A stretch of DNA of 47,455 nt from Rubrivivax sp. (GTDB lineage: Bacteria; Pseudomonadota; Gammaproteobacteria; Burkholderiales; Burkholderiaceae_C): the NCBI GenBank assembly GCA_016789955.1, contig JAEUPB010000046.1, positions 1-47,455 on the forward strand. The letters are read 5' to 3'. The position numbers were made by a program, and so were the translations under genes. The notes beneath the pieces are model-generated. The model was not told the origin of the DNA and made no database searches. It was given only the letters and a program-made list of their open reading frames with translations. Shown in pieces: positions 312-45,057 of this stretch. The first letter of the stretch is position 1, and the number at the start of each line of letters is the position of its first letter.

Positions 312-1034
312 TCACCGCCCGATCACCAGCCGGATCGCCGGCATCGCCTTCTCGCTCTCCGCCCGCCGCTCCAGGGCCTGCCGCAGGTTGAACTGCGCCA
401 CCTGCGTGTGCTCCACCGCCAGGGCCTCTGCGCGCACGCCCTCGCCGGCCTTCAGGGCCTGCACGAGCATGTGGTGCTGGCGGTGGGCGTAGAGCATCCA
501 GTCGCGGTCCAGCGCCAGCGAGCCCTGCATCGGCAGCATCGCGCTGGCCGGCGCGAACGGCAGCTTGTCGTTGAGCTGCACAGCGCGCTGCAGCGCGCGG
601 TTGCCGCTGGCCTCGAGGATCAGCGCGTGGAAGCGATCGTTCATCGCGGCGTAGCGCGCGTAGTGGGGCACCTTGAGCACCGGCGCGGCGAGTGCCGCGT
701 CTCCCTCGTCGAGGCAGGCCTGCAGGTCCAGCGCCAGCTGGCGCGGCACGCCGTGCTCGGCCACCAGCCGCGCGGCCATGCCTTCCAGGTGACCGCGCAC
801 CGCGATCGCATCGGCCACCTCGGCCGAGGTGAACTGCCGCACCTCGTAGCCACCACCGGCCGACGGCTCCACCAGCCCCTCCTGCTCCAGCGCCGCCAGC
901 GCCGAACGCACCGGCGTGCGCGAGGCCCCCAGCCGCTCGGCCAGCTGCTGCTCGGCCAGCCGCTCGCCAGGGGCGTAGTCGCCGCGCAGGATCAGGTCGC
1001 GCAGCTGCATCAGCACCGTCTCTTGCAGACCCAT
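312..1034 (-). CDS. GntR-family regulator with FCD domain
   Basis: The 240-aa product has an N-terminal winged helix (residues about 5-65; core residues LAERLGASRTPVRSAL, then LEQEGLV), followed by an all-helical FCD ligand-binding domain with the usual R-x2-E-x-MAARL start and H-x-Q-H near residue 185. FCD regulators normally repress catabolic operons and are released by an organic acid or pathway intermediate. I chose the ATG at 1034. Upstream starts at 1082 and 1181 are in frame but would run the gene through the palindromic site at 1064-1075. The gene is divergent from the Rieske operon that starts at 1135, so it is the likely local regulator. The ligand is unknown. Confidence 0.9.
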   Translation of the reverse strand: MGLQETVLMQLRDLILRGDYAPGERLAEQQLAERLGASRTPVRSALAALEQEGLVEPSAGGGYEVRQFTSAEVADAIAVRGHLEGMAARLVAEHGVPRQLALDLQACLDEGDAALAAPVLKVPHYARYAAMNDRFHALILEASGNRALQRAVQLNDKLPFAPASAMLPMQGSLALDRDWMLYAHRQHHMLVQALKAGEGVRAEALAVEHTQVAQFNLRQALERRAESEKAMPAIRLVIGR

Positions 1035-1063
1035 CGCCCACCACCGTACACTGATTTCGATCG

Positions 1064-1075
1064 ATGGTATACCGT
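1064..1075. promoter_or_regulatory. Candidate GntR operator
   Basis: ATGGTATACCGT contains the perfect palindrome GGTATACC (1066-1073) and matches the TGGTATACCA-like sites of FCD-type GntR proteins. It lies between the divergent gntR and oxygenase starts. A partial second half-site (GGGATACCACC) follows at about 1088-1098. Binding by the adjacent regulator is inferred. Confidence 0.6.
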
Positions 1076-1134: not shown

Positions 1135-2517
1135 ATGAAGGCCGAGCAGAACCACCTCATCACCCGCATCGGCCCCGGCACGCCCTGCGGCGCACTGATG
1201 CGCCGCTACTGGCAGCCGGTGGCGCTGCTCGACGAGTTCGACGCGGCGCTCGACCCGCGCATGTGGCAGCGTCCGCTGAAGGCGGTGCGCGCGCTGGGGC
1301 AGGACTTCATCCTGTTCCGCGACGAGCAGAACCGCTGGGGCCTGCTCGACCGCGACTGCCCGCACCGCAATGCCGACCTCGCGTTCGCGCGCCACGAGGG
1401 CGACGGCGTGCGCTGCCCCTTCCACGGCTGGAAGTTCGATGCCACCGGCCGCTGCCTGGACACCCCCGCCGAGCCGATCGGCAGCACGCTGTGCCAGCGC
1501 GTCAAGCAGCGCAGCTACCCGGTGCAGGAACACGCCGGCGTGCTGTTCGCGTGGCTGGGCGACGAAGGCAGCACGCCGCCGCCCTTCCCGCGCTTCGACT
1601 GCTTTGCCGCACCCTCCACACATGTGTTCGCCTTCAAGGGCCTGTGGAAGTGCAACTGGCTGCAGGCGTTCGAGGTGGGGCTGGACCCGGCGCACACGTC
1701 GTTCCTGCACCGCTTCCTGAACGACGCGCCGCTGGAGAGCATCGGCGACAACCCGGCCGGCAAGCAGTTCCGCAGCGCCAGCGCCGGCGACTTCGGCGGC
1801 GAGCGCTGGCCGATGACGCGCGTCATGCGAGAGTTCCACCGCCCCGACATCAGCCACGAGGCCAAGCCCTGGGGCCTGCAGATCACCACGCTGCGGCCGA
1901 TGACCGAGGAGCTGACGCACGTGCGCGTGACGCACGGCATCTTCCCCTACACCTTCGTGATCCCGCTGTCGGAGACGCTCACGATCACGCAGATGCACAT
2001 GCCGGTGGACGACGAGAACACCTACTGGTATTCGTTCTTCACGAGCTTCGCCGGGCCGGTCGACAAGAAGGCGATGCGCGACCAGCGCACGCAGTTCATC
2101 CCGCCGCCGCTGTTCGCGCCCAAGAGCGGGCGCCACAACGACTGGGGCTTCAATGCCGAGGAGCAGCGCAGCCGCACCTTCCTCGGCATGGGCGAGGAAG
2201 ACATCAACGTGCACGACCAGTGGGCCGTGGAGAGCATGGGCCCGATCCAGGACCGCACGCGCGAGCACCTGGGCACCAGCGACAAGATCATCATGGCCAA
2301 CCGGCGCATGCTGCTGGCGGCCATCGAGAGCGTGGCGCAGGGCGGCCCCGCGCCCGGCATCGCCGACCCGGCGCTGGCCGCGCAGATGCAGGGCCCCGAC
2401 ACGGTGGACGGCATCGCGCCGGCCGGCACCTGGGGCACGTGGTGGAAGGAGCGCACGCAGGCCAAGCGCGACGGGGCGCCCTGGATCGCCAAGGCACCCG
2501 AGACCACCACCGCATGA
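1135..2517 (+). CDS. Rieske non-heme iron oxygenase, alpha subunit
   Basis: The 460-aa product has an N-terminal Rieske domain with C75-x-H77-x16-C94-x2-H97, then a catalytic domain with E180-x3-D184-x2-H187-x4-H192 for the mononuclear iron. Length and layout fit the PobA/phthalate-dioxygenase-like class of one-subunit oxygenases: homo-oligomeric, no beta subunit, fed electrons by a separate reductase. It would hydroxylate, demethylate or dealkylate an aromatic or amine-derived substrate in the cytoplasm. It is the first gene of an operon, and its stop overlaps the next start by ATGA at 2514. A glutamine-synthetase-like gene and a ferredoxin follow, but no reductase or beta-subunit gene. The substrate cannot be read from the sequence. 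Confidence 0.92.
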   Translation: MKAEQNHLITRIGPGTPCGALMRRYWQPVALLDEFDAALDPRMWQRPLKAVRALGQDFILFRDEQNRWGLLDRDCPHRNADLAFARHEGDGVRCPFHGWKFDATGRCLDTPAEPIGSTLCQRVKQRSYPVQEHAGVLFAWLGDEGSTPPPFPRFDCFAAPSTHVFAFKGLWKCNWLQAFEVGLDPAHTSFLHRFLNDAPLESIGDNPAGKQFRSASAGDFGGERWPMTRVMREFHRPDISHEAKPWGLQITTLRPMTEELTHVRVTHGIFPYTFVIPLSETLTITQMHMPVDDENTYWYSFFTSFAGPVDKKAMRDQRTQFIPPPLFAPKSGRHNDWGFNAEEQRSRTFLGMGEEDINVHDQWAVESMGPIQDRTREHLGTSDKIIMANRRMLLAAIESVAQGGPAPGIADPALAAQMQGPDTVDGIAPAGTWGTWWKERTQAKRDGAPWIAKAPETTTA

Positions 2518-3995
2518 CGGTGCCGTTCGCGCAGCGCTGCGGCGTGCACGGCGCCGCGCGCGACGAAGCCGTGCGCGCCGTGCTGAAGCGCGTGCAGGAC
2601 GAGAACGTCGACCTCGTGCGCATCGCCTGGTGCGACGTGCACGGCCTGCTGCGCGGCAAGACCGTGGTGGCGTCGGCGCTCGTACGCGCGCTCGCCGACG
2701 GCATCGGCATGGTCAGCACGCTGATGCTGAAGGACACCTCCGACCGCACCGCGCTGCCGGTGTTCCGCCCCGACGGCACCGCGGGGCTGAGCGGCTTCGG
2801 GCAGGCCAACAACATCGTGCTGCTGCCCGACCCCACCAGCTACGGCACGCTGCCGTGGGCGCCGGGCAACGGCTGGCTGCGCGCCGAACCGTTCTTCGAG
2901 GATGGCAGGCCGGTGCTGCTGGACACGCGACGCGTGCTGCAACGGGCGCTCGCCCGGCTGGCCGAAGCCGGCTACGGCATGCGCTGCGGGCTGGAGGTGG
3001 AGTTCCACATCTACCGCCGCCGCGCCGGTTCGCCGCACGCCGACCCGGCGCTGTCGAACTGGCCCGGGCCAGCGCCGGAGGTCGAGTTGCTGCACCCGGG
3101 CTACGCGCTGCTGGCCGAGAGCGGCTTCGACCAGTGCGAGGAGGCGCTGCGCATCGTGATGCACACGGCGCAGGGGCTCGGGTTGCCGCTGAGTTCGCTG
3201 GAGGTGGAGTTCGGCCCGTCGCAGGTGGAGGCGGTGTTCGATGCCACCGACGCGCTCACCGCCGCCGATGCGATGGTGCGCTTCCGCAACGGCGTGCGCA
3301 TGGCGCTGGCCCGTGCCGGCTACCACGCCACCTTCATGTGCCGGCCGCCGTTCCCGCACGTGATGAGCAGCGGCTGGCACCTGCACCAGTCGCTGGTGCG
3401 GCTGGACGACGGCCGCAACGCGTTCTGCCGCGACGCGCCGGCGCCGGGCAGCACGCCGCGCGACGCGGCGCACCTGCTGTCCGACACGGGCGAACACGTG
3501 CTGGCTGGCCTGCTGGCCCATGCGCGCGCGATGGCCGTGCTGTGCACGCCCACGGCCAACGGCTACGGCCGCTTTCGCCCCAACGCGCTGGCGCCGCAAT
3601 CGGTGCTGTGGGGCCGCGACAACCGCGGCGCGATGCTGCGCGTGGTGGGCGGCGGCACCGATCCCGCCACGCGCATCGAGAACCGCATCGGCGAGCCGGC
3701 CGCCAACCCGTACCTCTACATCGCGTCGCAGGTGCTGGCGGGCCTGGACGGCCTCGCCCGCGGCCTGCGCGCGCCACCAGCCACCGACGACCCCTACGGC
3801 GATGCCGCCGAGCGCATCCCCACCACGCTGGCCGACGCACTGGCGGCGCTGCAGGAAGACGCCGTGCTGCGCGAGGGCCTGGGCCCAGAACTGACGCAGG
3901 TCTTCCGCCGCATCAAGGAATCCGAGATCGCGCGCATGGCCGAAGCCCCCGATGGCGACGAGTTCATGCGCCGGGAATACTTCGCAAGAATCTGA
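2514..3995 (+). CDS. Glutamine-synthetase-like ligase (gamma-glutamylamide synthetase type)
   Basis: The 493-aa product has the N-terminal beta-grasp region (VRIAWCDVHGLLRGKTV) and the catalytic fold of the glutamine synthetase family. Metal and substrate residues appear intact: GLEVEFHIY, EFGPSQVEAVF, SSGWHLHQSL, and the C-terminal WGRDNRGAMLRV and IENRIGEPAANPYLY blocks. Its length and VHGLLRGK motif fit the PuuA/IpuC/AtdA1-like branch, which joins glutamate to an amine using ATP, better than the ammonia-assimilating GlnA. Lying between an oxygenase and a ferredoxin, it probably activates or detoxifies an amine before oxygenation, as in the aniline and isopropylamine pathways. The specific amine is not known. 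Its start overlaps the oxygenase stop (ATGA). Confidence 0.88.
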   Translation: MTVPFAQRCGVHGAARDEAVRAVLKRVQDENVDLVRIAWCDVHGLLRGKTVVASALVRALADGIGMVSTLMLKDTSDRTALPVFRPDGTAGLSGFGQANNIVLLPDPTSYGTLPWAPGNGWLRAEPFFEDGRPVLLDTRRVLQRALARLAEAGYGMRCGLEVEFHIYRRRAGSPHADPALSNWPGPAPEVELLHPGYALLAESGFDQCEEALRIVMHTAQGLGLPLSSLEVEFGPSQVEAVFDATDALTAADAMVRFRNGVRMALARAGYHATFMCRPPFPHVMSSGWHLHQSLVRLDDGRNAFCRDAPAPGSTPRDAAHLLSDTGEHVLAGLLAHARAMAVLCTPTANGYGRFRPNALAPQSVLWGRDNRGAMLRVVGGGTDPATRIENRIGEPAANPYLYIASQVLAGLDGLARGLRAPPATDDPYGDAAERIPTTLADALAALQEDAVLREGLGPELTQVFRRIKESEIARMAEAPDGDEFMRREYFARI

Positions 3996-4333
3996 TGACC
4001 CTCACCGTCCACCTCCACGAGATCCGCGCCAACGGCGAACGCGTCGACCATGCCGTGCCGGCGCGGGCCGGCCAGTCGTTGATGCAGGCCGCCATTGAAG
4101 CCAATGTCTCGGGCATCTCGGCCGACTGCGGCGGGCTGATGACCTGTGCCACCTGCCACGTCTACGTGCACGACGACTGGGCCGAGCGCGTGCCGCCGGC
4201 GGGCGACGAGGAGGTCGGCATGCTCGACTTCGTCGCCGCCGAGCGACGGGCAACCAGCCGGCTGTCGTGCCAGATCACGCTCACCGATGCGCTGGACGGC
4301 CTCGCGGCCGACCTGCCGCCCACGCAGTACTGA
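3995..4333 (+). CDS. [2Fe-2S] ferredoxin, putidaredoxin/adrenodoxin type
   Basis: The 112-aa product carries C45-x5-C51-x2-C54-x37-C92, the ligand spacing of vertebrate-type (putidaredoxin-like) ferredoxins rather than plant-type ones. The C-terminal SRLSCQI is also typical. It would pass electrons to the Rieske oxygenase encoded two genes upstream. Its reductase is missing from the window, so an unlinked FAD reductase must serve it. The start codon shares one base with the upstream stop (TGATG), which indicates translational coupling. Confidence 0.93.
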   Translation: MTLTVHLHEIRANGERVDHAVPARAGQSLMQAAIEANVSGISADCGGLMTCATCHVYVHDDWAERVPPAGDEEVGMLDFVAAERRATSRLSCQITLTDALDGLAADLPPTQY

Positions 4334-4341
4334 TCCTCACG

Positions 4342-5130
4342 ATGGACGCCCGCGCCGTGGCCACGCCCTACCTGCAGCTGGCCGGCGTGCGCAAGGTCTA
4401 CGACCACGGCGGGCAGCAGACGGTGGCGCTCGGCCACGTCGACCTGACGGTGGACGACGGCGAGTTCCTCGCGATCGTCGGGCCCTCGGGGTGCGGCAAG
4501 AGCACGCTGCTGCAGATCGCCGCCGGCCTCGCGCCCGCCAGTGCCGGCGAGGTGCGTTTCCGCGGCGTGCCGGTGACGGCGCCGCCCGAGGGCATCGTGT
4601 ACCTGTTCCAGCAGTACGGCAAGTCGCTGCTGCCGTGGCGCACGGTGGCCGACAACGTCGCCTTCGCGATCGAGCACCGGCCCGGGCAGACGCGCGCCAC
4701 CGCGCGCGAGACCAGCCGCCGCTACCTGGGCCTCGTGGGCCTCGCGGAGTTCGCCGAGCGCTACCCGTGGCAGCTCTCCGGCGGCATGCAGCAGCGCGTG
4801 ACGATCGCGCGCGCGCTCGCCGCCGAGCCGCGCGTGCTGCTGATGGACGAGCCGTTCAGCTCGGTGGACGCGCTGACGCGGCTCGAGCTGCACCAGCTCG
4901 TGCTCGACCTGAAGGCCCGCCACGGCTTCACCGCAGTGCTGGTGACGCACGACGTCGACGAGGCGGTGTACCTGGCCGACCGCATCGCGGTGCTGTCGGG
5001 GCGCCCGTCGCAGGTGGCGCAGGTGGTGCAGACCGACCTGCCGCGCCCGCGCGACCCGATCGCCACGCGCGAGCTGCCGCGCTTCGTCGAACTCCGGCAC
5101 GCGCTGCTGGAGCGGCTGCTGGGCCGCTGA
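4342..5130 (+). CDS. ABC transporter ATPase, NitT/TauT type
   Basis: The 262-aa product has Walker A GPSGCGKST (residues 47-55), a Q-loop near residues 90-91, signature LSGGMQQRV (145-153), Walker B VLLMDEPFSSVD (165-176) and the switch histidine in VTHDVDEA. Close kin are SsuB/TauB, which energise uptake of sulfonates, nitrate or small organic molecules. The open frame extends back to 4267, but ATG 4342 starts right after the ferredoxin stop and gives the normal length. It probably drives both permeases of this operon. Confidence 0.95.
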   Translation: MDARAVATPYLQLAGVRKVYDHGGQQTVALGHVDLTVDDGEFLAIVGPSGCGKSTLLQIAAGLAPASAGEVRFRGVPVTAPPEGIVYLFQQYGKSLLPWRTVADNVAFAIEHRPGQTRATARETSRRYLGLVGLAEFAERYPWQLSGGMQQRVTIARALAAEPRVLLMDEPFSSVDALTRLELHQLVLDLKARHGFTAVLVTHDVDEAVYLADRIAVLSGRPSQVAQVVQTDLPRPRDPIATRELPRFVELRHALLERLLGR

Positions 5131-5143
5131 CCGGGACCGACCG

Positions 5144-5923
5144 ATGGCCCGCGCCCGCCCCTGGCACGACCCCGAGCGCTGGCTCGGCGCCGCGACGGTC
5201 GTGGGGCTGGTGGCGATGCTCGAGGCCGCGGTGCGCAGCGGCGGCGTGAACGCGGCGCTGGTGCCTGCGCCCAGCACGGTGGCCGTGAGGCTGGGCACCA
5301 TTCTCCAGGGCGGCGATGCTTGGCGGCCACTGGGCGAGACGCTCGCGCTGCTGGCCGCAGCCTACGCCGTAGGCTGCGCGCTGGCGGTGGCCGCCGGCCT
5401 TGCGATGGGCCGCTCGGCGTGGATGCACGGGCTGCTCGAGCCGCTGGTGGAAGTGCTGCGCCCGCTGCCCAAGCCGGCGCTGCTGCCGCCGCTGATCCTG
5501 TTCCTGGGCCTGGGTGCGCCGATGAAGCTCACGGTCATCGCGCTGGGCGTGTTCTTCCCCGTGCTCGTCAACACCGTGCAGGGCGTGCGCGGCACCGAGC
5601 CGGTGCTGCTGGATGCCGCGCGCACCTTCGGCCACACGCGGCTGCACACGCTGCTGGCGGTGGTGCTGCCGGCGTCGTTGCCGATGGTGCTGGCCGGCAT
5701 GCGCGTGAGCCTGGGCCTGGGCCTCGTGCTCGTGATCGTCGCCGAGATGATGGCGGGCACCGGCGGCGTGGGCTACCTGATCCTCGACATGCAGCGCTCG
5801 TTCCGCGTGCCCGAGATGTACGCGTGGATCGTCATCCTGGCCGTGCTCGGCTGGGCCCTCAACGCCGTGTTCGTGCGCCTGGAAGGGCGCGTGACGCGCT
5901 GGTCGTTCGCCACTCGGGACTGA
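5144..5923 (+). CDS. ABC transporter permease 1, NitT/TauT type
   Basis: A 259-aa inner-membrane protein with about six hydrophobic helices. The family's coupling loop is present (GVRGTEPVLLDAARTFG, then LPASLPMVLAGMRVSLGLGLV). It begins 13 bp after the ATPase gene. It is clearly homologous to the second permease at 8561, with the same blocks (LVEVLRPLPKPALLPPLILF against LVELLRPIPIPALVPPLILL). The two may form a heterodimer, which is unusual for this class, where one permease normally homodimerises. Confidence 0.93.
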   Translation: MARARPWHDPERWLGAATVVGLVAMLEAAVRSGGVNAALVPAPSTVAVRLGTILQGGDAWRPLGETLALLAAAYAVGCALAVAAGLAMGRSAWMHGLLEPLVEVLRPLPKPALLPPLILFLGLGAPMKLTVIALGVFFPVLVNTVQGVRGTEPVLLDAARTFGHTRLHTLLAVVLPASLPMVLAGMRVSLGLGLVLVIVAEMMAGTGGVGYLILDMQRSFRVPEMYAWIVILAVLGWALNAVFVRLEGRVTRWSFATRD

Positions 5924-5975
5924 CCCGCGGCGACCTTCACTCCCCTGCCCCGATCAACCCCAAGGAGCCGACACC

Positions 5976-6941
5976 ATGACCACGCCGACCTCGATCACCC
6001 GCCGCACCGCCTGCGGCGCCGCCGCGTCGCTGCTGCTCGCGCCGGCCGCCCGCGCGCAGCCGGTGAAGCTGCGCGTCAGCACCATCCCCATCCTCGACAC
6101 CGCGCCGCTGCAGGTGGGCATCGCCAAGGGCTTCTTCGCCGCCGAAGGGCTGGAGATCGACACCACGCCCACCACGGGCGGCGCGGCCGGGCTGCCGGCG
6201 CTGGCCGCCGGCCAGGTGCAGATCACCTTCAGCAACATCATCAGCATCGTGCTCGGCGCCAAGCAAGGCCTGGGCTTCGAGGTCATCACCGCCGGCAGCG
6301 GCACCGGCGACAAGCTGCCCGACCTGGCCGGCCTCGTCGCGAAGAAGGGCCACGCATTCAAGACCGGCAAGGACCTCGAGGGCAAGCGCATCGCGGTGAA
6401 CACGCGCAACAACATCATCTGGCTCTACGCGCGCGCCTGGGTGCAGGCCACCGGGGGCAACCCCGACGCGGTGACGTACCTCGAGGTGCCGTTCCCGCAG
6501 ATGATCGATGCGGTCAAGGGCGACCGTGTCGACGCGGCGTTCGTCGTCGAGCCGTTCATGACCGGCGGCATCTCCAGCGACGCCGTGTCGCTCGTCGCCT
6601 GGCCGTACTACACGGTGCAGAAGCGCATCCCGGTGGGCCAGTACGCGGCCACCAAGACCTACATCGCGCAGAACCCGCAGGTCATCGAGAAATGGGTGCG
6701 GGCCTACAACAAGTCGGCCGACTGGTGCAACCAGAACGTCGGCTCGGAGGAGTTCCTGAAGATCGTCTCGGCCTACACGCGCATGCCGCCCGAGGTGATC
6801 AAGGGGCTGAACGTGCCGGTCTACGAGAAGACCGTCGACCTCGGCGCGGTGGACCAGGTGGTCGAGCTGATGCGCAAGCACAAGCTGATCGAAGGGCCGT
6901 TCGACAGCAAGGCGCTCTTCAGCAAGTCCGCCGTCAAGTAG
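5976..6941 (+). CDS. Periplasmic binding protein, NitT/TauT (NMT1/SsuA-like)
   Basis: The 321-aa product has an N-terminal twin-arginine-like signal (TRRTACGAAASLLLAPAARA, cleavage near residue 27), then the NMT1/SsuA fold: LRVSTIPILDTAPLQVGIAKGFF, DTTPTTGGAAGLPALAAG, and GKRIAVNTRNN before the second lobe. It delivers the transported compound to the permeases at 5144 and 8561. A good AAGGAG ribosome site precedes the ATG. The ligand could be a carboxylate, sulfonate or pyrimidine-like compound, and the sequence does not decide which. Confidence 0.93.
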   Translation: MTTPTSITRRTACGAAASLLLAPAARAQPVKLRVSTIPILDTAPLQVGIAKGFFAAEGLEIDTTPTTGGAAGLPALAAGQVQITFSNIISIVLGAKQGLGFEVITAGSGTGDKLPDLAGLVAKKGHAFKTGKDLEGKRIAVNTRNNIIWLYARAWVQATGGNPDAVTYLEVPFPQMIDAVKGDRVDAAFVVEPFMTGGISSDAVSLVAWPYYTVQKRIPVGQYAATKTYIAQNPQVIEKWVRAYNKSADWCNQNVGSEEFLKIVSAYTRMPPEVIKGLNVPVYEKTVDLGAVDQVVELMRKHKLIEGPFDSKALFSKSAVK

Positions 6942-8564
6942 ATGACCGACACCATCGTCCGCGGCGCGCTGGTCACGATGGACCCGGCGCGCCCGCGCGC
7001 CGAGGCGATGCTGGTGCGCGACGGGCGCATCGCCGCGGTGGGCACGCTGGCCCAGGTGCGCGCCGCCGCCGCGGCCGGCGCGCACGAGATCGCGTACCCG
7101 CGCGGCGCGGTGGTGCCCGGGCTGATCGACACGCACAACCACATGCACTGGACCGGCCTGCAGTCGCGGCTCGTCGACCTGTCGGGTGCGCGCTCGATCG
7201 CCGACATCCAGGCCGCCATTCGCGACTGGGCGGCGAGCCACCCGCAAGCCTCCTGGATCACCAGCGGCAGCGGCTGGCACGTGGCCGTGCTGGCCGAGCA
7301 GCGCTACCCCACGCGGCAGGAACTCGACGCGGCCTGCCCCGACCGGCCGGTGTACCTGCCGCGTGTCGGCCACGCCGCGGTGGCCAACTCGCGCGCGCTG
7401 GCGCTGGCCGGCATCACCGCGGCCACGCCCGACCCCGACGGCGGCCGCATCTCGCGCGACGCGCAGGGCGAGCCCGACGGGCTGCTGCTGGAACCGCCGG
7501 CCTTCGAACCGGTGGCGCGGCTCGTGCCCCCGCCTTCGGCCGCTGACCAGGAAGGCGCGCTGCGCGACGTGCAGCGCCGCTACCACGCGGCCGGCCTCAC
7601 CGGCATCATGGACCCCGGCGTGCCGCCCGACGTGATGGGGCTGTACCAGCGGCTGTGGCAGCGCGGCGAACTGAGCGTGCGCTCGGTGCTGATGCCGCTG
7701 GCCGATGCCAGCCGGCCGGTGGACGAGACGATCGCGCGCATCGAAGGCTCGGGCCTGCGCACCGGCTTCGGTGACGATCGGCTCAAGCTCGGCGGCGTCA
7801 AGGTGTTCCTCGACGGCGGCGCCTCGCTGGGCACCGCGCTGATGCGCGAGCCCTACCCGGACGAGCGCTGCAACTGCGGCATCCAGGTCACGCCCACCGA
7901 ATCGTTGCGGCGCATCGCGTGGGCCTGCGCGAGGAACGGCTGGTCGCTGGGCGTGCACGTGGTGGGCGGCAAGGCCATCGACCTCGCGCTCGAGATCTTC
8001 GAGGAGGTGAACTCCGAGATCCCGCTGCGCGACCTGCGCTTCTCGCTGATCCACGCCTACCTGTGGCCCGACGAGCGCAACATCCGCCAGTGCGCGGCGA
8101 TGGGCATCGCGGTGGCTACGCAGTGCAGCATGCAGTACACCTTCGGGCCGCTGCTGGTGAAACGCTTCGGCACGGTGATGATGTCGCTGGCCACGCCGGT
8201 GCGCAGCTGGCTCGACGGCGGCGTGCGCGTGGGCGGCGGCTCGGATTCGCCGGTCACGCCGTACCCGCCGCTGCTGGGCCTGTGGCAGTCGCGCACGCGG
8301 CGCATCGCCGGCACCACCGAGCCCATCGGCCGCCAGCAGGCGGTGAGCGGCGACGAGGCGCTGGCGATGCTGACGCGCGACGCGGCGTGGCTCTCGTTCT
8401 CCGAGCACGAGCGCGGCATGCTCAAGCCCGGGCTGCTGGCCGACTGGACCGTGCTGTCGGTGGACCCGGTGGCCTGCGAGCCCGACGAGCTGGAACACGC
8501 GCAGGTGCTGGCCACCGCGGTCGGCGGCCAGGTGGTGCACGATGCGGAGCGCGGGGCCGCATGA
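6942..8564 (+). CDS. Amidohydrolase, YtcJ-like
   Basis: The 540-aa product belongs to the Amidohydro_3 family: a beta-sandwich start (IVRGALVTMDPARP), the metal motif H65-x-H67 in DTHNHMH, a GVKVFLDGGASLGTALM segment, GVHVVGGKAID, SLIHAYLWPDE, and a metal aspartate in GGSDSPVTPYPPL. Members are cytoplasmic metal-dependent hydrolases of amide or related C-N bonds. The gene starts immediately after the binding-protein stop and overlaps the next permease gene (ATGA at 8561), so it is part of the pathway. It may release glutamate from a gamma-glutamyl intermediate or open an amide or lactam substrate; both are inferences. Confidence 0.9.
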   Translation: MTDTIVRGALVTMDPARPRAEAMLVRDGRIAAVGTLAQVRAAAAAGAHEIAYPRGAVVPGLIDTHNHMHWTGLQSRLVDLSGARSIADIQAAIRDWAASHPQASWITSGSGWHVAVLAEQRYPTRQELDAACPDRPVYLPRVGHAAVANSRALALAGITAATPDPDGGRISRDAQGEPDGLLLEPPAFEPVARLVPPPSAADQEGALRDVQRRYHAAGLTGIMDPGVPPDVMGLYQRLWQRGELSVRSVLMPLADASRPVDETIARIEGSGLRTGFGDDRLKLGGVKVFLDGGASLGTALMREPYPDERCNCGIQVTPTESLRRIAWACARNGWSLGVHVVGGKAIDLALEIFEEVNSEIPLRDLRFSLIHAYLWPDERNIRQCAAMGIAVATQCSMQYTFGPLLVKRFGTVMMSLATPVRSWLDGGVRVGGGSDSPVTPYPPLLGLWQSRTRRIAGTTEPIGRQQAVSGDEALAMLTRDAAWLSFSEHERGMLKPGLLADWTVLSVDPVACEPDELEHAQVLATAVGGQVVHDAERGAA

Positions 8565-9319
8565 AGCCGCACCGCCTCGCCGGCTTCGCGCTGCTGGCCG
8601 CGCTGCTCCTGCTGTGGCAAGTCTCGGCGCTGAGCTGGGTCAGCAGCACGAACTGGCCGCCGTTCACGCAGGTGCTGAAGGCGCTCGTCGAGGGCTTCCG
8701 TTCGGGCGAACTGGTGCAGGTGTTCGGCTCCAGCCTGGGCCGCATGCTCGCGGGCTACGCGGCCGGCTCGGCGGTGGGCATCGCGGTGGGCGTGGCGATG
8801 GCACGCTCGCGCTGGCTGAATGCGGCGCTCGGGCCGCTGGTGGAGCTGCTGCGGCCGATCCCGATCCCGGCGCTGGTGCCGCCGCTGATCCTGCTGCTGG
8901 GCCTGGACAACGCGATGAAGATCTTCGTCGTCGCCTTCGCGGTGTTCTTCCCGGTGCTGATCAACACCGCCACCGGTGTGCGCGCGGTCGATCCGGTGGC
9001 ACTGGACGTGGCGCGCACCTTCCAGGCCGGCCGCTGGCGCACGCTGGCCGGCGTGGTCCTGCCGGCGGCCCTGCCCTACGTGATGGCCGGGCTGCGCACG
9101 AGCCTGGCGCTGGCGCTGATCGTCACCGTGGTGGCCGAGATGATCGCGGGCTCCGCCGGCCTGGGCTACCACCTCGTGACGATGCAGTACGCGATGCGCG
9201 CGCCCGACATGTACGCGGCCATCGTGCTGTTGGCCGCGGTGGGCTACGTGCTCAACCGCGGCATGCTGGCGCTGGAACGCCGGCTGCTGCACTGGTACCA
9301 GCGCGACGCGGCGGCATGA
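8561..9319 (+). CDS. ABC transporter permease 2, NitT/TauT type
   Basis: A 252-aa inner-membrane protein and paralogue of the permease at 5144, with the family coupling loop (GVRAVDPVALDVARTFQAG) and the helix pair around LPAALPYVMAGLRTSLALAL. The first 25 residues are an uncleaved hydrophobic helix. It is overlapped by ATGA at both ends. It is separated from the rest of the transporter by the amidohydrolase gene, an order that suggests duplication or assembly from two cassettes. Confidence 0.93.
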   Translation: MKPHRLAGFALLAALLLLWQVSALSWVSSTNWPPFTQVLKALVEGFRSGELVQVFGSSLGRMLAGYAAGSAVGIAVGVAMARSRWLNAALGPLVELLRPIPIPALVPPLILLLGLDNAMKIFVVAFAVFFPVLINTATGVRAVDPVALDVARTFQAGRWRTLAGVVLPAALPYVMAGLRTSLALALIVTVVAEMIAGSAGLGYHLVTMQYAMRAPDMYAAIVLLAAVGYVLNRGMLALERRLLHWYQRDAAA

Positions 9320-10206
9320 CGACACAGACCTGGCGCATCGGCGCGGCCACCGTGACCCGCATCGAGGAGCAGCTCGGGCCCGGCAGCTTCCCGCCCGAGC
9401 AGTACTTCAGCGGCTACGAGCCCGAGGTGCTCGAACGCCACCGGTCGTGGCTGGTGCCGCACCACTACCTGCCCGACCGCCACGCGCTCGTGACCAGCGT
9501 GCACAGCTGGCTGATTCGCACGCCGCGGCACACGGTGCTGCTGGACTGCTGCTCGGGCAACCACAAGAACCGCCCGTGGTGGCCGCGCTTCCACCAGCTC
9601 GAGACGCCGTTCCTCGAACGCCTGGCCGCCGCCGGCGTCACCCCCGAGCAGGTCGACATCGTGCTGTGCACGCACCTGCACGCCGACCACATCGGCTGGA
9701 ACACGCGGCTGCGGGATGGCCGCTGGGTGCCCACGTTCCCGAACGCGCGCTACCTCTTCGGCCGCACCGAAGCCGAGTGGTTCGACCCGCAGCGCCACCC
9801 CGACAGCGACGACCCGCACCGCCGCATCGCCTGGGCCGACAGCGTGCTGCCGGTGCTGGAGGCGGGGCAGGCCGAACTCGTCGACACGCCGCATGCGATC
9901 GACGACACGCTGACCATCGAGGCCGCTCCCGGCCACACGCACGGCCACGTGCTGCTGCAGCTGCACATGCCCCGAGGCCAGGCCGTGTTCTGCGGCGACG
10001 TGCTGCACCACCCGCTGCAGGTGGTGGCGCCGCATTGGAACAGCCAGTTCTGCGTGCTGCCCGACGAGGCACGAGCGACGCGCCGCCGCGTGCTCGAACA
10101 CTGCGCCGCTCAGGGTGCGCTGCTGCTGCCGACGCACTTCAGTGCGCCGCACGTGGCGCGCATCACGGCGCCCGGCGAGGTGCCGCAGTTCGTCGAGCCC
10201 GGTTGA
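9316..10206 (+). CDS. Metallo-beta-lactamase-fold hydrolase
   Basis: The 296-aa product has H120-x-H122-x-D124-H125 (THLHADH), a further histidine at about 207, D228 in FCGDVLHHP and H274 in LLPTHF, giving a full two-zinc site. It resembles the AHL-lactonase-like MBL proteins often found in catabolic operons, where they hydrolyse lactones, thioesters or esters. It is the last gene of the operon and overlaps the permease stop by ATGA. Its role as a late hydrolytic step is inferred from context. Confidence 0.88.
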   Translation: MTTQTWRIGAATVTRIEEQLGPGSFPPEQYFSGYEPEVLERHRSWLVPHHYLPDRHALVTSVHSWLIRTPRHTVLLDCCSGNHKNRPWWPRFHQLETPFLERLAAAGVTPEQVDIVLCTHLHADHIGWNTRLRDGRWVPTFPNARYLFGRTEAEWFDPQRHPDSDDPHRRIAWADSVLPVLEAGQAELVDTPHAIDDTLTIEAAPGHTHGHVLLQLHMPRGQAVFCGDVLHHPLQVVAPHWNSQFCVLPDEARATRRRVLEHCAAQGALLLPTHFSAPHVARITAPGEVPQFVEPG

Positions 10207-10242: not shown

Positions 10243-12237
10243 TCAGAAGACACACCGGGCCTGCGGCGGCTTCGAATCGAAGCCGAGCCTCTCGGCAAGG
10301 GCGACGAAGCGCGCTTGCCCGCGCACCGCAGCCCAGCGGTGGTCGAGCTGCAGGTAGGCCAGGCGGATGTCGCGTTCTTCGTAGGCGCGCTCGAGCGCGG
10401 TCAATGCCGCGTCGTGCTCACCCAGCGCGACATGCACGAGCGCCATCATGGCCGGCGAGATGAATCCTTCGCGGCCTTGCGCCTGCATGCCGCGCAACAC
10501 GGCTCGCGCACGATCGGCGTGCCCCGTCTCTCCGAGCGCGAAGCCGAACGGGCCGCTGGCCCAGGCGCTGCCGCCGGACAGTTCGACGGCACGCTGCAGC
10601 GAAGCGAGCGCCGCCTCGCTCTGGCCGGCGTTGAACATCACGTTGCCGAAGATCAGGTGTCCGATCCAGAAACCGGGGCCGATCTGCAGCGCACGCCGTA
10701 TTTGGGCAATGCCTTCGTCGAGGCGGCCCATCGATGCCAGCGCGCCTCCCTCGAACGCGTTGGCGAGGACGGAGTGCGGCTCGATCTCGCGAGCACGAAC
10801 GAACCCGCGCAGCGCCTCGGCGGCCCGCCCATGGCTCATGTGGACATGGGCCAGACCGTGGTGGGCATCGGCCGCACTGGGGTTCAACTCGCGGGCCACG
10901 GTGAACGCCTGTTCGGCGCGCAGCCAATCCCAGTCGTACAGGTAGGCCACCCATCCAAGGATCGCCTGGCCTTCGCCGAGTCGCGGATCGATGTCCACCG
11001 CGCGTTGCGCCGCGGCGCGGATGCGCTCGAAGGTCTGGCGCGGCGCCTTGTTCGAGGTGAACAGCTCGCGCCGCAGCACGTCAGCCAGGCCGCACCAGGC
11101 ATAGGCATAGCGTGGGTCGGCGGCGATCGCCTGTTCGTACAGCGCGATCGAACGCCGGTAGGCATCGGCTGTGAACAGCAGCGACAGGTAGCGGGCCTCC
11201 AGGTACAGGCGATAGGTCTCGGCGCTGCGCGTGCCGGCCACGCCCAGCGCACCGCGCTCGCGCTCGCCCAGGCGCGGCATCAGCACCTCGGCGACGCGGC
11301 GCGAGATCGCCTCCTGCACGTCGAAGACATGGGTAAAGGTCTCGTCGAACGTGCCGCTCCAGGCTGCGCTGCCGTTGCGCACGTCGAGCAGACGTGCCGT
11401 CACGCGCAGCCGCTCGCCCTGCTGTGCCATCGTGCCTTCGACGACCCAGCCGACGCCCAGGTCGCGCGCTGCCTGCAGCGCATCGGTATCCTGCCCGGCA
11501 TAGCGCCGCACGGCGCCGACCGGTCGCACGATCACGCCCCTCGCCGCGCTCAAGCGCGCGATCAGGCTGTCGGCCATGCCCAGTTCGAGCACCTCGTCGC
11601 GCGCGCTGCCGCTGCCGGCCAGCGGTCGAAACGGCAGCACCGCCAGCGTCGTCGGCGGTGTCGGATCGGACACGGGCGTGTCGGCCTCGCTGCCGGCGTC
11701 GGCGCGCCAGAGGCGTGGACCGATGACGAGTCCCACGCCGAGCGCGACCGCAGCGCCCGCCGCACCGGCCAGGGCGAAGACCCATCGCCGTGGCCGGGCG
11801 GTTGCCGGCATCGCTCCTGCCGTCGCCGCGGCGCTGGCGGAAGCATCGGAAGCACCGGCGACCGGGCCGGTCGCGGCCACCACCGCGTGCACGTCGGCGA
11901 CGAATCGGAACCCCCGCCGCGGCACCGTGAGCAGGTAGCGCTTGTCGTTGCCGTCGTCGCCGAGCGCGCGCCGCAGCGCCGACACCAGCTTGTTGAGGTT
12001 GTTCTCCTCGACCACCTGACCCGGCCATAGGTCCGCCAGCAGGGTGTCCTTGTCCAGCAGCTCGCCGCGGCGCTCGACGAAATAGACGAGGGCGTCGAAC
12101 AGCCGCGGCGACAGCTCGACCGTGGCGCCGCGCGCATCGAGCAGGCGCCGCCGCCCGAGGTCGAGCCTGAAGTCGCCGACAGCCAGGTGGATGGAGTCAC
12201 CGACGGTCGCTTCGACCGGGCGTTCAGAAAGATTCAT
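10243..12237 (-). CDS. CadC-like membrane regulator with TolB-like and TPR domains
   Basis: The 664-aa product has an OmpR-type winged helix (residues 17-115; LSPRLFDALVYFVERRGELL, WPGQVVEENNLNKLVSALR, PRRGFRF), an Ala-rich linker, one transmembrane helix (about 152-173), a TolB-N/FlgO-like domain (about 195-330; AVLPFRPLAG, WVVEGTMAQQGERLRVTARLLD), and then TPR-type helical repeats to the end. This is the common ToxR/CadC-TPR design, in which a membrane-bound wHTH protein senses through its outer part. It is divergent from the binding-protein gene at 12292, which it may control. It converges with the MBL-fold gene, with only 36 bp between the ends. Confidence 0.88.
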   Translation of the reverse strand: MNLSERPVEATVGDSIHLAVGDFRLDLGRRRLLDARGATVELSPRLFDALVYFVERRGELLDKDTLLADLWPGQVVEENNLNKLVSALRRALGDDGNDKRYLLTVPRRGFRFVADVHAVVAATGPVAGASDASASAAATAGAMPATARPRRWVFALAGAAGAAVALGVGLVIGPRLWRADAGSEADTPVSDPTPPTTLAVLPFRPLAGSGSARDEVLELGMADSLIARLSAARGVIVRPVGAVRRYAGQDTDALQAARDLGVGWVVEGTMAQQGERLRVTARLLDVRNGSAAWSGTFDETFTHVFDVQEAISRRVAEVLMPRLGERERGALGVAGTRSAETYRLYLEARYLSLLFTADAYRRSIALYEQAIAADPRYAYAWCGLADVLRRELFTSNKAPRQTFERIRAAAQRAVDIDPRLGEGQAILGWVAYLYDWDWLRAEQAFTVARELNPSAADAHHGLAHVHMSHGRAAEALRGFVRAREIEPHSVLANAFEGGALASMGRLDEGIAQIRRALQIGPGFWIGHLIFGNVMFNAGQSEAALASLQRAVELSGGSAWASGPFGFALGETGHADRARAVLRGMQAQGREGFISPAMMALVHVALGEHDAALTALERAYEERDIRLAYLQLDHRWAAVRGQARFVALAERLGFDSKPPQARCVF

Positions 12238-12248
12238 GACTATTCAAG

Positions 12249-12292
12249 CGCTGGCAAAGCAGCGTAACGCCACCGACACGATGCTGCCAGCG
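12249..12292. promoter_or_regulatory. Inverted repeat in divergent intergenic region
   Basis: CGCTGGCA (12249-12256) faces TGCCAGCG (12285-12292), with a 28-bp spacer, between the divergent regulator and binding-protein starts. It may be an operator for the wHTH regulator. The right arm runs into the GTG start at 12292, which slightly favours the in-frame ATG at 12301 as the true start. Confidence 0.35.
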
Positions 12293-13269
12293 TGAACCGC
12301 ATGCCGTACCTACGCCTCTGGCTGCCGGCCCTGCTCGTACTCGCCGCCTGGACGGGCTCGGCGGCGCAGCCGGCCAAGCCGGCCCGCGTGGCATTCCTGG
12401 GCATGGACTCGCGCATGCAGGCGCCCTTCGTCGCGGCCTTCGTCGATCGCCTGCGCGCCCTCGGCTACCAGGAAGGCCGCCAGGTGGTGTTCGAGTTCCG
12501 CTGGGCCGAGCGGCACTTCGAGCTGCTGCCCGCCCTGGCGGCTGAACTCGTCGCGAACCGGCCCGATGTCATCGTCACCGCCGCCCCGCCGGCCGTGCGC
12601 GCGGTGCAACGGGCGACCACCAGCATCCCCACGGTGGTTCTGATCCACGACCCGGTGGGCAGCGGCTTCGTCGAGACCTTGGCGCGGCCGGGGCGCAACA
12701 TCACCGGCGTGGCCTTCCAGGACTCGGAGCTCTCGGCCAAGCGGCTGGACCTGCTGCGGCAGATGATTCCGCGCATCGGCAAGGTCGGCGTGATCTGGAA
12801 CCGGGAGGGCGGCGGTGTCGGCGCCGTGCAGGCCCTGGAACACGCGGCGCGCACGCTGGGCGTCGAACTGCGTGCGTTCGAGATCGTTCATCCTTCGGAC
12901 CTCCCTGAGGCCATGCGCCAGGCGAAATTGTGGGGCGCCCAGGGCATCGTACAGCCGGCGTCGCCGGTGTTCACCCAGAACCGCGTGTCACTGCTCGAGG
13001 CGGCGGCGAGACACCAGCTGCCGATGATGTGCGAGATGCGCAACCTGGTCGTCGAAGGGTGCCTGGCCACCTACAGCGCCAGCTTTCCCGCGCAGTACGC
13101 CCGCATGGCCGACTACGTCGACCGCGTGCTGCGCGGCGCGCGCGCGGACAGCCTGCCGGTGGAGCAGCCGCGCGAGTTCGAGTTCGTCATCAACGCGAGG
13201 ACGGCGCGCGAGCTGGGCCTGGAGATCAACCCGGCCATCCGCCTGCGTGCGACCGAAGTGCTTCAGTGA
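12292..13269 (+). CDS. ABC_sub_bind-family periplasmic protein
   Basis: The 325-aa product has a cleavable signal (WLPALLVLAAWTGSAAQ) and the two-lobe fold of PF04392 (YtrE/TrpX-like): RVAFLGMDSRMQAPFVAAFVD, LGYQEGRQVVFEFRWAE, PDVIVTAAPPAVRAVQ, IPTVVLIHDPVGSGFV, GRNITGV. Family members in Burkholderiales often occur without permease or ATPase genes, as here. The listed start is GTG; ATG at 12301 is nearly as good. It is probably co-transcribed with the outer-membrane gene 10 bp downstream. The ligand is unknown; known TrpX-like members bind aromatic amino acids. Confidence 0.9.
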   Translation: MNRMPYLRLWLPALLVLAAWTGSAAQPAKPARVAFLGMDSRMQAPFVAAFVDRLRALGYQEGRQVVFEFRWAERHFELLPALAAELVANRPDVIVTAAPPAVRAVQRATTSIPTVVLIHDPVGSGFVETLARPGRNITGVAFQDSELSAKRLDLLRQMIPRIGKVGVIWNREGGGVGAVQALEHAARTLGVELRAFEIVHPSDLPEAMRQAKLWGAQGIVQPASPVFTQNRVSLLEAAARHQLPMMCEMRNLVVEGCLATYSASFPAQYARMADYVDRVLRGARADSLPVEQPREFEFVINARTARELGLEINPAIRLRATEVLQ

Positions 13270-13278
13270 GGAGGGTCG

Positions 13279-14223
13279 ATGAACAGGATTCCCATGCCGG
13301 ATCGTGCTGCCTGCGGCGCGGCGCTCTTGATGGTTGCGATGGTGCCGGCATCGGCCACCGAAGGCGGCGGCACCGCCAAGATCCTCGGCGTCGAAACGGT
13401 GATGGCCGGCGTGATGCAGGCGCCGGGCCAGTGGCGCGTGGTGACCGTCGTGGGCCACTACCGCAGCGAGCACACGCTGGATGGCAACGGCAACCCGCGC
13501 GCACCGCTGTCCAACTTCGACCTGAAGGTCACCGCCTTCGCGATGCGCTTCCAGTACGTCTGGCCCGAGCTGAAGCTGCTCGGCGCCGACGTCGAATCCC
13601 GATTCGGCGCCGCGTGGTACACCGACACGACGCTGTCGTTCGACGTCGCCACGCCCGGCGGACCGGTCCATCGCGCCGACGCTTCCACCGGCCATGGCGA
13701 CGCGCTGCTGGCGCCCATCACCCTCGGCTGGAAAAGTCCGTCCCTGCACCAGATCGCCGGCCTCGAAATCTACGTGCCCTGGGGGCGGTTCGACACGAGC
13801 CGGCTGGCCAACCGCACCCGTGGCTACCTGGCCGTGGCGCCGGCCTATCGCTTCACCTGGTTCCCGGCGCCCGCTTTGGAGGTGAGCGGCAACCTGATCT
13901 ATCTGCTGAACCGCGAGAACCCGGACACGCGGGTGAAGAGCGGGCGCGAACTGAGCTTCGACTATGGCATCGGCTACACCCTGGCTCCGGGCTGGCAGGT
14001 GGGCGCCTCGGGCTATCTGTATCGCCAGGTCAGCGACGACACGCTGCGCGGCATCCGCGTCGCGCCCGACGGCAATCGCGGCCGTGTCGCCGCGACGGGC
14101 CCCTTCCTGCGCTGGTACACCAGCGACGGCATGGGCATCACCTTGAAGTGGCAGGTGGAGAGCGGCGCGAGGAACAAGACCGACGGCAATCGCTTCTTCC
14201 TGCAGTTCGCGCGCAATCTCTAG
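13279..14223 (+). CDS. MetA/SphA-type outer-membrane protein
   Basis: The 314-aa product has an N-terminal signal (ending near VPASAT) and alternating beta-strand texture with aromatic girdles throughout (FAMRFQYVWPE, YRFTWFPAPALEVSGNLIYLLN, GYTLAPGWQVGASGYLYRQ, FFLQFARNL). The C-terminal aromatic/leucine ending fits an outer-membrane barrel. It matches the Phenol_MetA_deg (PF13557)/SphA group, found next to aromatic degradation genes and presumed to admit hydrophobic substrates. A GAGGAG ribosome site precedes the ATG. It is likely the outer-membrane partner of the upstream binding protein. Confidence 0.85.
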   Translation: MNRIPMPDRAACGAALLMVAMVPASATEGGGTAKILGVETVMAGVMQAPGQWRVVTVVGHYRSEHTLDGNGNPRAPLSNFDLKVTAFAMRFQYVWPELKLLGADVESRFGAAWYTDTTLSFDVATPGGPVHRADASTGHGDALLAPITLGWKSPSLHQIAGLEIYVPWGRFDTSRLANRTRGYLAVAPAYRFTWFPAPALEVSGNLIYLLNRENPDTRVKSGRELSFDYGIGYTLAPGWQVGASGYLYRQVSDDTLRGIRVAPDGNRGRVAATGPFLRWYTSDGMGITLKWQVESGARNKTDGNRFFLQFARNL

Positions 14224-43830: not shown

Positions 43831-45057
43831 ATGCCCGCTCGAGCCTCCGAGTTGAACGCCCTGGCGGTGCAGCGCCTGAAGTCGCCCGGCTTGCACTTCG
43901 TTGGGGGCGTGGCGGGCCTTGCGCTCCAGATCACCGACACCGGCAGCCGGAGTTGGACTCTGCGGCTGTCCGTGGCTGGCCGGCGCCGCGACATGGGGCT
44001 CGGTGCTTACCCTGACGTGACGCTGGCCATGGCCCGGGAAAGGGCCCGAGAGGCCCGAGAACTGGTGCGCCGGGGAGTCGACCCGATCGAACAACGTCGT
44101 GCCGCAACGAGCGCGCTCAAGGCATCCGTAGCGGCCGCGCTGACGTTCCGGCAGACCGCCACGGCCTACATCAGCACACATGAGGCCGGCTGGAAGAACG
44201 CCAAGCACGCCCAGCAGTGGCGCAACACGCTGGAGGCCTATGCCTACCCGGTGATGGGCGACCTGCTGGTGCGAGACGTCCAGAAGGAGCATGTGCTGGC
44301 GGCGCTGCGGCCGATCTGGACGGAGAAAAATGAGACCGCCACGCGGCTTCGGGGACGTATCGAGCTCGTGCTCAGCTACGCCATGCAGGCCGGGTATCGG
44401 CCAGAGGGCCTGAATCCCGCACGCTGGCGCGGGGGGCTGGACAAGCTGCTGCCAGCCCCGGCCAAGGTCGCCAAGGCCGAGCACCACCCGGCGCTCCCCC
44501 TCGGCCAGGTAGGGGCGTTCATGCAGCGGTTGCGGGCTGCGCCAGGAATGGGCGCCCGGGCGCTGGAGTTCACCATCCTGACGGCGGCGCGCTCGGGGGA
44601 GGTCCGCGGAGCGACATGGGCCGAGATCGACCTGCAAGACAAGGTTTGGTCGGTACCGCCCTCACGGATGAAGGCGGGCAATGAGCATCGGGTACCGTTG
44701 TCGACCGCCGCCATAGCGCTGCTCGAAGCGCTGCCGCGAATCGCGGGAACCGACTTGGTGTTCCCGGCCCCTCGCGGCGGGCAGCTATCCGACATGACGC
44801 TGTCCGCGGTCCTGCGGCGGATGGAGATCCCGGCCGTCCCTCACGGGTTCCGGAGCACGTTCCGGGACTGGGCTGCGGAACGCACGACCTTCCCACGGGA
44901 AGCCGCGGAGATGGCGCTGGCGCACACGATCGAGTCGAAAGTCGAGGCGGCGTACCGGAGGGGCGACCTCTTCGAGAAGCGGCGAGTCATGATGGCCGAG
45001 TGGGCGGACTTCTTGAGCTTGGAAGAGCAGCCGGCCAAGGTGATCCCGATGAGGTAG
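43831..45057 (+). CDS. P4-type tyrosine integrase
   Basis: The 408-aa product has an N-terminal DUF4102-like arm-binding domain (FVGGVAGLALQITDTGSRSW, MGLGAYPDVTLAMARERA), a core-binding SAM-like domain (about 105-195) and the catalytic domain. Active-site residues are R254 (TAARSGEVRG), K281, H338 and R341 (HGFRSTFRDWA), H365 (LAH) and Y375 (AYRRGDLF), all intact. It would integrate and excise the element at the tRNA 3' end. It points away from the attachment site, into the island. Confidence 0.95.
   Translation: MPARASELNALAVQRLKSPGLHFVGGVAGLALQITDTGSRSWTLRLSVAGRRRDMGLGAYPDVTLAMARERAREARELVRRGVDPIEQRRAATSALKASVAAALTFRQTATAYISTHEAGWKNAKHAQQWRNTLEAYAYPVMGDLLVRDVQKEHVLAALRPIWTEKNETATRLRGRIELVLSYAMQAGYRPEGLNPARWRGGLDKLLPAPAKVAKAEHHPALPLGQVGAFMQRLRAAPGMGARALEFTILTAARSGEVRGATWAEIDLQDKVWSVPPSRMKAGNEHRVPLSTAAIALLEALPRIAGTDLVFPAPRGGQLSDMTLSAVLRRMEIPAVPHGFRSTFRDWAAERTTFPREAAEMALAHTIESKVEAAYRRGDLFEKRRVMMAEWADFLSLEEQPAKVIPMR

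Follow-up and report, generated by a model that had tools for sequence, protein, structure and literature searches.

The window analysed here, a stretch of 47,455 nucleotides from a Rubrivivax sp. (contig JAEUPB010000046.1 of assembly GCA_016789955.1, forward strand, positions 1 to 47,455), carries a nine-gene operon that is real and conserved, with a core of a known kind and a front end that is a rare variant. Judged by sequence likeness, its first three genes, for a Rieske oxygenase alpha subunit, a glutamine synthetase (GS)-like ligase and a ferredoxin, are a sadABD-type core, Sad being the closest known system that we found; the other six encode an ATP-binding cassette (ABC) importer and two hydrolases. 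With some reserve, we favour reading the whole as a sadABD-type core that has its own importer-hydrolase front end for a conjugate of a para-anionic arylamine.

In the open reading frame (ORF) and gene models of the window, nine plus-strand genes fill positions 1135-10206 exactly, with junctions, in order, of -4, -1, +8, +13, +52, 0, -4 and -4 bp, which bears out the packed one-strand operon described in an earlier note on this DNA. That note had also remarked on the lack of a beta subunit and of a class I amidotransferase, and Pfam gene content agrees: the nine-gene operon holds neither, nor a ferredoxin reductase gene. A class I amidotransferase homologue (32%) lies elsewhere in the genome (5.26 Mb in 116 contigs, 79.6% complete). 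The Rieske motif C-x-H-x16-C-x2-H begins at residue 75 of the oxygenase, whose nearest solved relatives are phthalate-type dioxygenases, and the ferredoxin has the expected cysteine pattern. To our knowledge, oxygenases of the phthalate/LigXa family have no beta subunit by nature. The importer is assigned to the NitT/TauT type by its NMT1-type binding protein, BPD permeases and ATPase of the ntrCD/tau kind, the specific NCBIfam models scoring below cut-off.

In the sad operon, sadA encodes 4-aminobenzenesulfonate 3,4-dioxygenase and sadB a glutamine synthetase, together with a ferredoxin; the operon is reported as fairly conserved across all Hydrogenophaga genomes then available, and its original substrate is proposed there to be a naturally occurring compound of similar structure (PMC5632844). 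The gene order Rieske alpha, GS-like ligase, ferredoxin is found both in the window and in Hydrogenophaga intermedia MER 62, whose locus, used throughout as a proxy for the SadABD of strain PBC, is 69, 63 and 60% identical to the window over the three proteins. It is the only such locus found in MER 62, a second, aniline-type ligase there being 41% identical. Gan is said to have shown in 2012 that sadB is required for activity in E. coli. The features of the aniline-type clusters (AtdA/Dca/Npa), alpha and beta subunits and a class I amidotransferase in the cluster, are absent from the window operon. Since the core is of the sadABD type, the missing beta subunit and amidotransferase are ordinary for its layout (PMC5632844), and do not indicate the new chemistry that the earlier note had seen in them. 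The SadA/SadB sulfonamide monooxygenases of Microbacterium share the name only and were set aside as an unrelated system.

The pairing of oxygenase and ligase is widely kept. By manual count, 106 of the 110 loci compared have a Rieske gene adjoining the ligase; the 110 are 80 kept from at least 564 ligase relatives plus 30 same-genus loci, the window (L001 in our numbering of loci) and some doubles included. Three of the other four (L011, L059 and L088) reach a contig end at the expected place, and L009 is a true miss, the gene being absent also from L128, a longer stretch of L009. A ferredoxin match was found in 91 of the 110, the same-genus loci carrying only 1.5 kb of flank. Ligase matches of at least 53% identity occur in 35 of 60 same-genus genomes (manual count, partial matches included). 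A small ABM-domain protein gene (L066, 5223-5522; its cluster in 34 loci) often follows directly after the ferredoxin in Comamonadaceae cores, and is absent from the window operon.

The ligase is distinct from GlnA, as the earlier note had proposed: it scores 189 bits against the NCBIfam GlnA model, whose cut-off is 429. Its best model by score, gamma-glutamylputrescine synthetase (211 bits), is also under cut-off, and all four matched models, among them GlnA, PuuA-type and type III, are far below theirs. In a 44-row tree the window ligase groups with Sad-type rows that include MER 62 (support a modest 91/85); an aniline-type clade of its own (100/100) unites NpaA1 with the pLME1 ligase and the second ligase of H. 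intermedia, and E. coli GlnA and PuuA fall outside on long branches, where their placement is unsure. The phylogeny called for in that note thus separates the ligase from GlnA, PuuA and the aniline type; AtdA and Ipu, which it had cited as known routes, were not shown to be closest, the Sad type being the closest found.

The nearest solved ligase, 8wwu, is NpaA1, in which F75' forms a tunnel bottleneck; its alanine mutant is reported to keep 15-25% of activity on 1-naphthylamine and almost none on aniline (PMC11335346). The NpaA1 tunnel loop V68'-M81' aligns without gaps with residues 66-79 of the window ligase, which has Lys73 at the F75' position and so lacks the aniline-type bottleneck. All 139 Sad-type rows carry Lys73 and all six aniline-type rows Phe, the latter rows being a small sample partly picked with the residue in view. 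The alignment of 145 distinct ligase rows was divided at first into 140 Sad-type and 5 aniline-type, and L199 was then moved to the aniline type; L172 and L173 had been set as aniline-type after Phe was seen, an assignment backed independently for L173 (alpha and beta subunits) and unbacked for L172. Beside the aniline-type ligase of L199 (the same as L222) the search matched no window-type Rieske gene. The Sad group has 70 columns of at least 98% identity; T69, K73 and G372 alone among them differ from every row first grouped as aniline-type, and two of these three fall in the tunnel loop. Position 78, facing S80' of NpaA1, is taken by Arg, Lys or His at all but one of 143 Lys73 loci (loci, not distinct sequences), the exception having Gln. 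With Lys73 in place of the aniline-type Phe at a substrate-tunnel position, the amine is suggested to bear an anionic group in para; a carboxylate or sulfonate would go well with a basic residue there.

Across the sampled genomes it is the front end that varies, the core staying much the same. With the Palleronia ligase as query, a match at E 1e-85 was found in 24 of 397 Pseudomonadota genomes, the window's own included, and 24 stretches were taken from the 23 others. Lys73 is present in 23 of these 24 ligases, the exception being the aniline-type L222, whose genome also holds a Lys73 ligase (L221), and a Rieske gene lies in the stretch for 22 of the 23 (the miss is L201); with the window's own genome counted, 23 of the 24 genomes have a Rieske gene near a Lys73 ligase. 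Read by hand against a reference set, the importers near the 23 are of the branched-chain ABC type in 13 (L212 among them, with NitT-like matches as well), tripartite ATP-independent periplasmic (TRAP) in five and of the window's NitT/TauT type in one (L200, which also carries a CehA/McbA-like hydrolase and a ferredoxin); in four none was seen. Candidate amine-unmasking enzymes beside cores are Amidohydro_3 with the metallo-beta-lactamase (MBL) hydrolase, CehA/McbA, and nitroreductase with PnbB. We entertain, tentatively, a wider idea in which Lys73 Sad-type ligases are a general device for para-anionic arylamines, their cores combined with varied importers and amine-unmasking enzymes, and the window is the version for a natural 4-aminobenzoate conjugate. 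A small CHMI-like gene (5-carboxymethyl-2-hydroxymuconate isomerase family) is likewise a repeated neighbour of the Sad-type ligase, both at alphaproteobacterial plasmid loci and in L200.

The importer-hydrolase block is rare. A genome search confirmed the earlier note's expectation that the gene set would be conserved elsewhere: all nine genes stand in the same order in five genomes, the window and four others (L031, the same contig as G026:C19; L042, a Limnohabitans metagenome-assembled genome; L083, the same as G040:C62; and L123, which is G007). Orthologues of the amidohydrolase (at least 75%) occur in four of 60 same-genus genomes, with at most 14 candidates scored per genome, and those of the MBL protein (at least 71%) in the same four, all beside the core; the other genus matches listed reach at most 36 and 48%, respectively. 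Because the nine-gene order recurs in four other genomes and orthologues of the seventh and ninth genes are always beside the core, the arrangement is beyond chance. Across the order (399 genomes, up to three candidates scored in each), the window's own genome was alone in matching the amidohydrolase at E 1e-100. In the ligase tree the nine-gene carriers do not fall into a single clade, the firm branches being compatible with one origin. The Amidohydro_3 metal motifs are kept in the 10 locus rows compared (six genomes) and THLHADH in the nine MBL rows compared (five genomes), the window included in both. By eye, the N-terminus of the binding protein resembles an export signal and that of neither hydrolase does. 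The Amidohydro_3 family takes in N-substituted formamide deformylase and D-aminoacylases. The MBL protein's nearest solved relative is 4le6 (68 bits), and its nearest solved relatives, organophosphorus hydrolases and lactonases, score at most 68 bits; it falls well short of the model cut-offs for quorum-quenching lactonases (68 versus 360 bits for AidB, 53 versus 425 for YtnP), and its role is the least certain part of the pathway proposed below.

Clues to the substrate come from neighbours elsewhere and from the window's own genome. On a Palleronia plasmid (L120) a window-type importer, a CehA/McbA-family hydrolase and the ligase adjoin pcaHGBDC. PnbB-like genes lie near the core in four of 12 plasmid loci (L117, L166, L168 and L169; Pfam-tested for two), with nitroreductase matches in three of the four and also in L115; nfnB/pnbA and pnbB are reported to convert 4-nitrobenzoate to protocatechuate (PMC9590159). 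Plasmid pSA3 of Novosphingobium resinovorum SA1, described as a well-studied 4-aminobenzenesulfonate degrader (PMC5632844), carries a Rieske-GS pair with Lys73. The window's own genome holds pobA and ligA above model cut-offs, adjoining a class III extradiol (ligB-like) gene that is above its subfamily cut-off and under that of the fused protocatechuate-enzyme model, and four matches to PF00775 (intradiol dioxygenases). Together, the neighbours elsewhere and the pobA-ligAB genes of the window's genome speak for 4-aminobenzoate-like substrates and for protocatechuate, with the ring's anionic group para to the nitrogen.

In the pathway that we propose, the ABC system would import a conjugated arylamine (a para-anionic aniline, such as 4-aminobenzoate, in N-acyl, ester or similar form), and the cytoplasmic Amidohydro_3 and MBL hydrolases would free the amine. 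The SadB-type ligase would then glutamylate it, Lys73 and perhaps Arg78 binding the carboxylate or sulfonate, and the Rieske alpha subunit would dioxygenate the nitrogen-bearing carbon and its neighbour, supplied by the ferredoxin together with a reductase whose gene lies elsewhere. The glutamyl amide would depart, and the catechol (protocatechuate from 4-aminobenzoate) would enter the genome's 4,5-cleavage route. The earlier note's logic of import, glutamylation and oxygenation is thus supported. Its placing of amide hydrolysis after oxygenation fits poorly: for the related 1-naphthylamine route the abstract takes the glutamylated amine to the diol without mention of an amidase, and a heading credits NpaA1A3A4A5, without A2 (PMC11335346). 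We place hydrolysis between import and glutamylation because the core mostly occurs without these hydrolases and another hydrolase family stands at the two other loci with the same importer type.

Several points weigh against this interpretation. A sixth genome (L060, Polaromonas) has eight of the genes, rearranged, with importer and amidohydrolase as a separate divergent operon and no MBL gene in the 21.5 kb examined. Amidohydro_3 genes occur also at L115 (one) and L208 (two), and as such genes are common these occurrences could be chance. Within 5 kb of the ligase, 21 of 76 modelled loci hold a maiA-type cluster, 18 a 3-hydroxybenzoate 6-monooxygenase and 15 a gentisate dioxygenase (76 of 81 sets, the gene models of L041, L042, L056, L072 and L073 being empty or nearly so), so that in Comamonadaceae the frequent neighbours are gentisate-side, not protocatechuate-side (one member per cluster was named by model). 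A sulfonate would fit the SsuA-like binding protein just as well, and the comparison with Sad passes through a proxy strain. No close ferredoxin reductase was found in the genome assembly, 79.6% complete, the best match being 37%. The substrate class is narrowed, not proven: the substrate, like the order of steps and the regulation, is inferred, and the importer's ligand is predicted from sequence and context. Gene content, likeness to the Sad type, conservation, the Lys73 signature, the upstream element and the downstream genes are computed.

As gentisate-pathway genes flank many cores, the 3-aminobenzoate (mab) route of Comamonas QT12 was considered, and was dropped since its first enzyme is given as 3-aminobenzoate 6-monooxygenase (PMC9584955). 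It was dropped also because a flanking dioxygenase (one cluster member) passes the gentisate model (531 versus 442 bits) and fails that for 5-aminosalicylate (222 versus 650). Limnohabitans cores adjoin housekeeping genes, the flanks tested being a MiaB-like radical-SAM gene and Ffh. A gentisate route as the main downstream path was dropped on account of those flanks, and because vicinal dioxygenation would give no gentisate. Given the gentisate-side neighbours and the Limnohabitans flanks, neighbourhood alone does not decide the substrate.

Four other explanations were weighed against the reading of a Sad-type core with an input-side front end. That the core acts on arylsulfonates such as 4-aminobenzenesulfonate, with a sulfonate importer and hydrolases for sulfonated conjugates, we find doubtful. 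The binding protein is indeed nearest SsuA_fam, the published Hydrogenophaga core has this activity (PMC5632844) and the sulfanilate degrader's pSA3 carries a similar pair, but SsuA_fam is matched at 82 bits against a cut-off of 163.5, the pca and PnbB neighbours indicate carboxylates, and the authors of the Hydrogenophaga work themselves favour a natural original substrate (PMC5632844). The order of the earlier note, in which amide and then lactone or ester hydrolysis follow oxygenation of a new substrate, would explain why all the named activities share one operon and why the MBL protein is nearest to lactonases and organophosphorus hydrolases. It is unlikely all the same, for the core's usual lack of these hydrolases implies that they are not generally needed after oxygenation, and the CehA/McbA-like hydrolase between importer and core at the two same-importer loci suits an input step.

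Equally unlikely is that the block is an unrelated cassette sitting behind the core by chance. Most core loci are without it, its carriers do not form one clade in the ligase tree (one origin being still compatible) and in L060 it is divergent; yet the amidohydrolase orthologue adjoins the core in all four genomes of the genus that carry it, the window genes share a strand with 4-bp overlaps among them, and a similar importer stands beside the core in Palleronia and G735. An ordinary glutamine synthetase or an alkylamine or polyamine ligase of the IpuC, PuuA or GmaS kind is very improbable: the top score of the gamma-glutamylputrescine synthetase model is what speaks for it, whereas all four matched models are far under cut-off, the tree places the ligase with the Sad type and its partner is a phthalate-type aromatic oxygenase.

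A divergent GntR protein would control the operon through a two-box element (Table 1). In 38 of the 76 modelled loci a member of the GntR/FCD cluster is located no more than 5 kb from the ligase, and the consensus TGTACACTGA-N10-[CT]GG[TG]ATACC or a close form was found in 40 of 49 divergent GntR/Rieske intergenic sequences, in which the window is counted twice (WIN, L001) and L083 twice (as L122). The element is always 29 nt long, though the search pattern permitted a spacer of 12-20, and its distance to the start codon varies between loci (14 to 81); in shuffles of the window 0 matches are expected. The nine misses are L041, L073, L074, L083, L122 and L123, which by eye hold variants, and the distant L116, L168 and L169. 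A regulon search at up to two mismatches gave no second copy in the genome. The element is probably a promoter (TGTACA / TATACC, 17-bp spacer) overlapping a putative palindromic GGTATACC operator; a sigma-70 consensus scan called nothing there.

Table 1. Features of the operon and its upstream region (window coordinates), and of a recurrent small gene at other loci
Feature	Position	Strand	Basis or remark
GntR/FCD-family regulator gene	312..1034	-	Pfam GntR + FCD; start from gene model; ORF open to 1181
Two-box element CGTACACTGA-N10-TGGTATACC	1045..1073	+	29 nt between GntR and Rieske genes
Rieske oxygenase alpha subunit, SadA-type, alpha only	1135..2517	+	Pfam Rieske + LigXa_C
GS-like ligase, predicted arylamine:glutamate, SadB-type, Lys73 + Arg78	2514..3995	+	Pfam Gln-synt_C, tree, signature
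[2Fe-2S] ferredoxin, SadD-type	3995..4333	+	Pfam Fer2; nearest NCBIfam fdx_isc, below cut-off
NitT/TauT-type ABC importer ATPase	4342..5130	+	Pfam ABC_tran; best NCBIfam ntrCD, below cut-off
ABC importer permease 1	5144..5923	+	Pfam BPD_transp_1
Periplasmic substrate-binding protein, NMT1/SsuA family	5976..6941	+	Pfam NMT1; NCBIfam SsuA_fam below cut-off
Amidohydro_3 metal hydrolase	6942..8564	+	Pfam Amidohydro_3; HNH metal motif intact, no evident export signal
ABC importer permease 2	8561..9319	+	Pfam BPD_transp_1
MBL-fold hydrolase, lactonase/organophosphorus hydrolase-like	9316..10206	+	Pfam Lactamase_B; HxHxDH intact
CHMI-like gene at other loci	L114 10578-10919; L120 8427-8780; L171 9368-9706; L200 near 9.0 kb

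Downstream, and convergent with the operon, lies a regulator with a Trans_reg_C DNA-binding domain and tetratricopeptide (TPR) repeats (10243-12237), and shortly afterwards, on the plus strand, an ABC_sub_bind protein gene and then a Phenol_MetA_deg family gene (12292-14223). At 43831-46397 a tyrosine-type phage integrase gene adjoins a PD-(D/E)XK nuclease gene, at or close to a region where G+C is lower (0.64-0.69); this is possibly a mobile or defence island. An ARAGORN scan of the window gave no tRNA.

Lys73, the protocatechuate-side neighbours and the importer-hydrolase version make the question of the sad operon's natural substrate (PMC5632844) testable, as they specify which class of substrate to try, which residue to mutate and which operator to assay. 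If the proposed reading is true, many freshwater and soil bacteria would salvage aminobenzoate-type compounds via glutamylation, and one residue could set ligase specificity for charged arylamines; if the general-device idea is true, the purpose of the widespread Sad-type operons would be answered. No title or abstract start joined a NitT/TauT importer to a Sad-type core or mentioned the Lys73 signature; as neither was searched for by its exact words and subscription journals were mostly uncovered, both absences are weak evidence.

Among known systems, the aniline, chloroaniline and 1-naphthylamine routes (AtdA, DcaQ/TdnQ, NpaA) likewise glutamylate an arylamine and then dioxygenate it. Unlike the window, their clusters have the order GS, amidotransferase, alpha, beta (with the reductase next on pLME1), and their ligases, 35-41% identical to that of the window, form their own clade with Phe at the Lys73 position. 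The Sad-like PnbB clusters on Cupriavidus, Caballeronia and Methylobacterium plasmids share with the window an alpha-only Rieske oxygenase and a Lys73 GS, but their amine probably comes from nitro reduction rather than hydrolysis, and all four have a ferredoxin-reductase homologue. The Palleronia plasmid and G735 loci share the window's importer type, placed next to the GS gene and 41-62% identical per subunit, with a CehA/McbA-like metallohydrolase in place of Amidohydro_3 and MBL; pca is adjacent in Palleronia only, and in G735 the importer, CehA-like hydrolase, ferredoxin, Rieske and GS genes stand together. In H. intermedia MER 62 the locus differs from the window in an upstream ABC system with a Peripla_BP_6 binding protein and a downstream FAA-hydrolase cluster member, and its 21.3 kb gave no match to an Amidohydro_3 or MBL homologue; it has a divergent GntR gene, as in the window. 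The sad operon of H. intermedia PBC has Rieske alpha, GS-like ligase and ferredoxin in the same order as the window.

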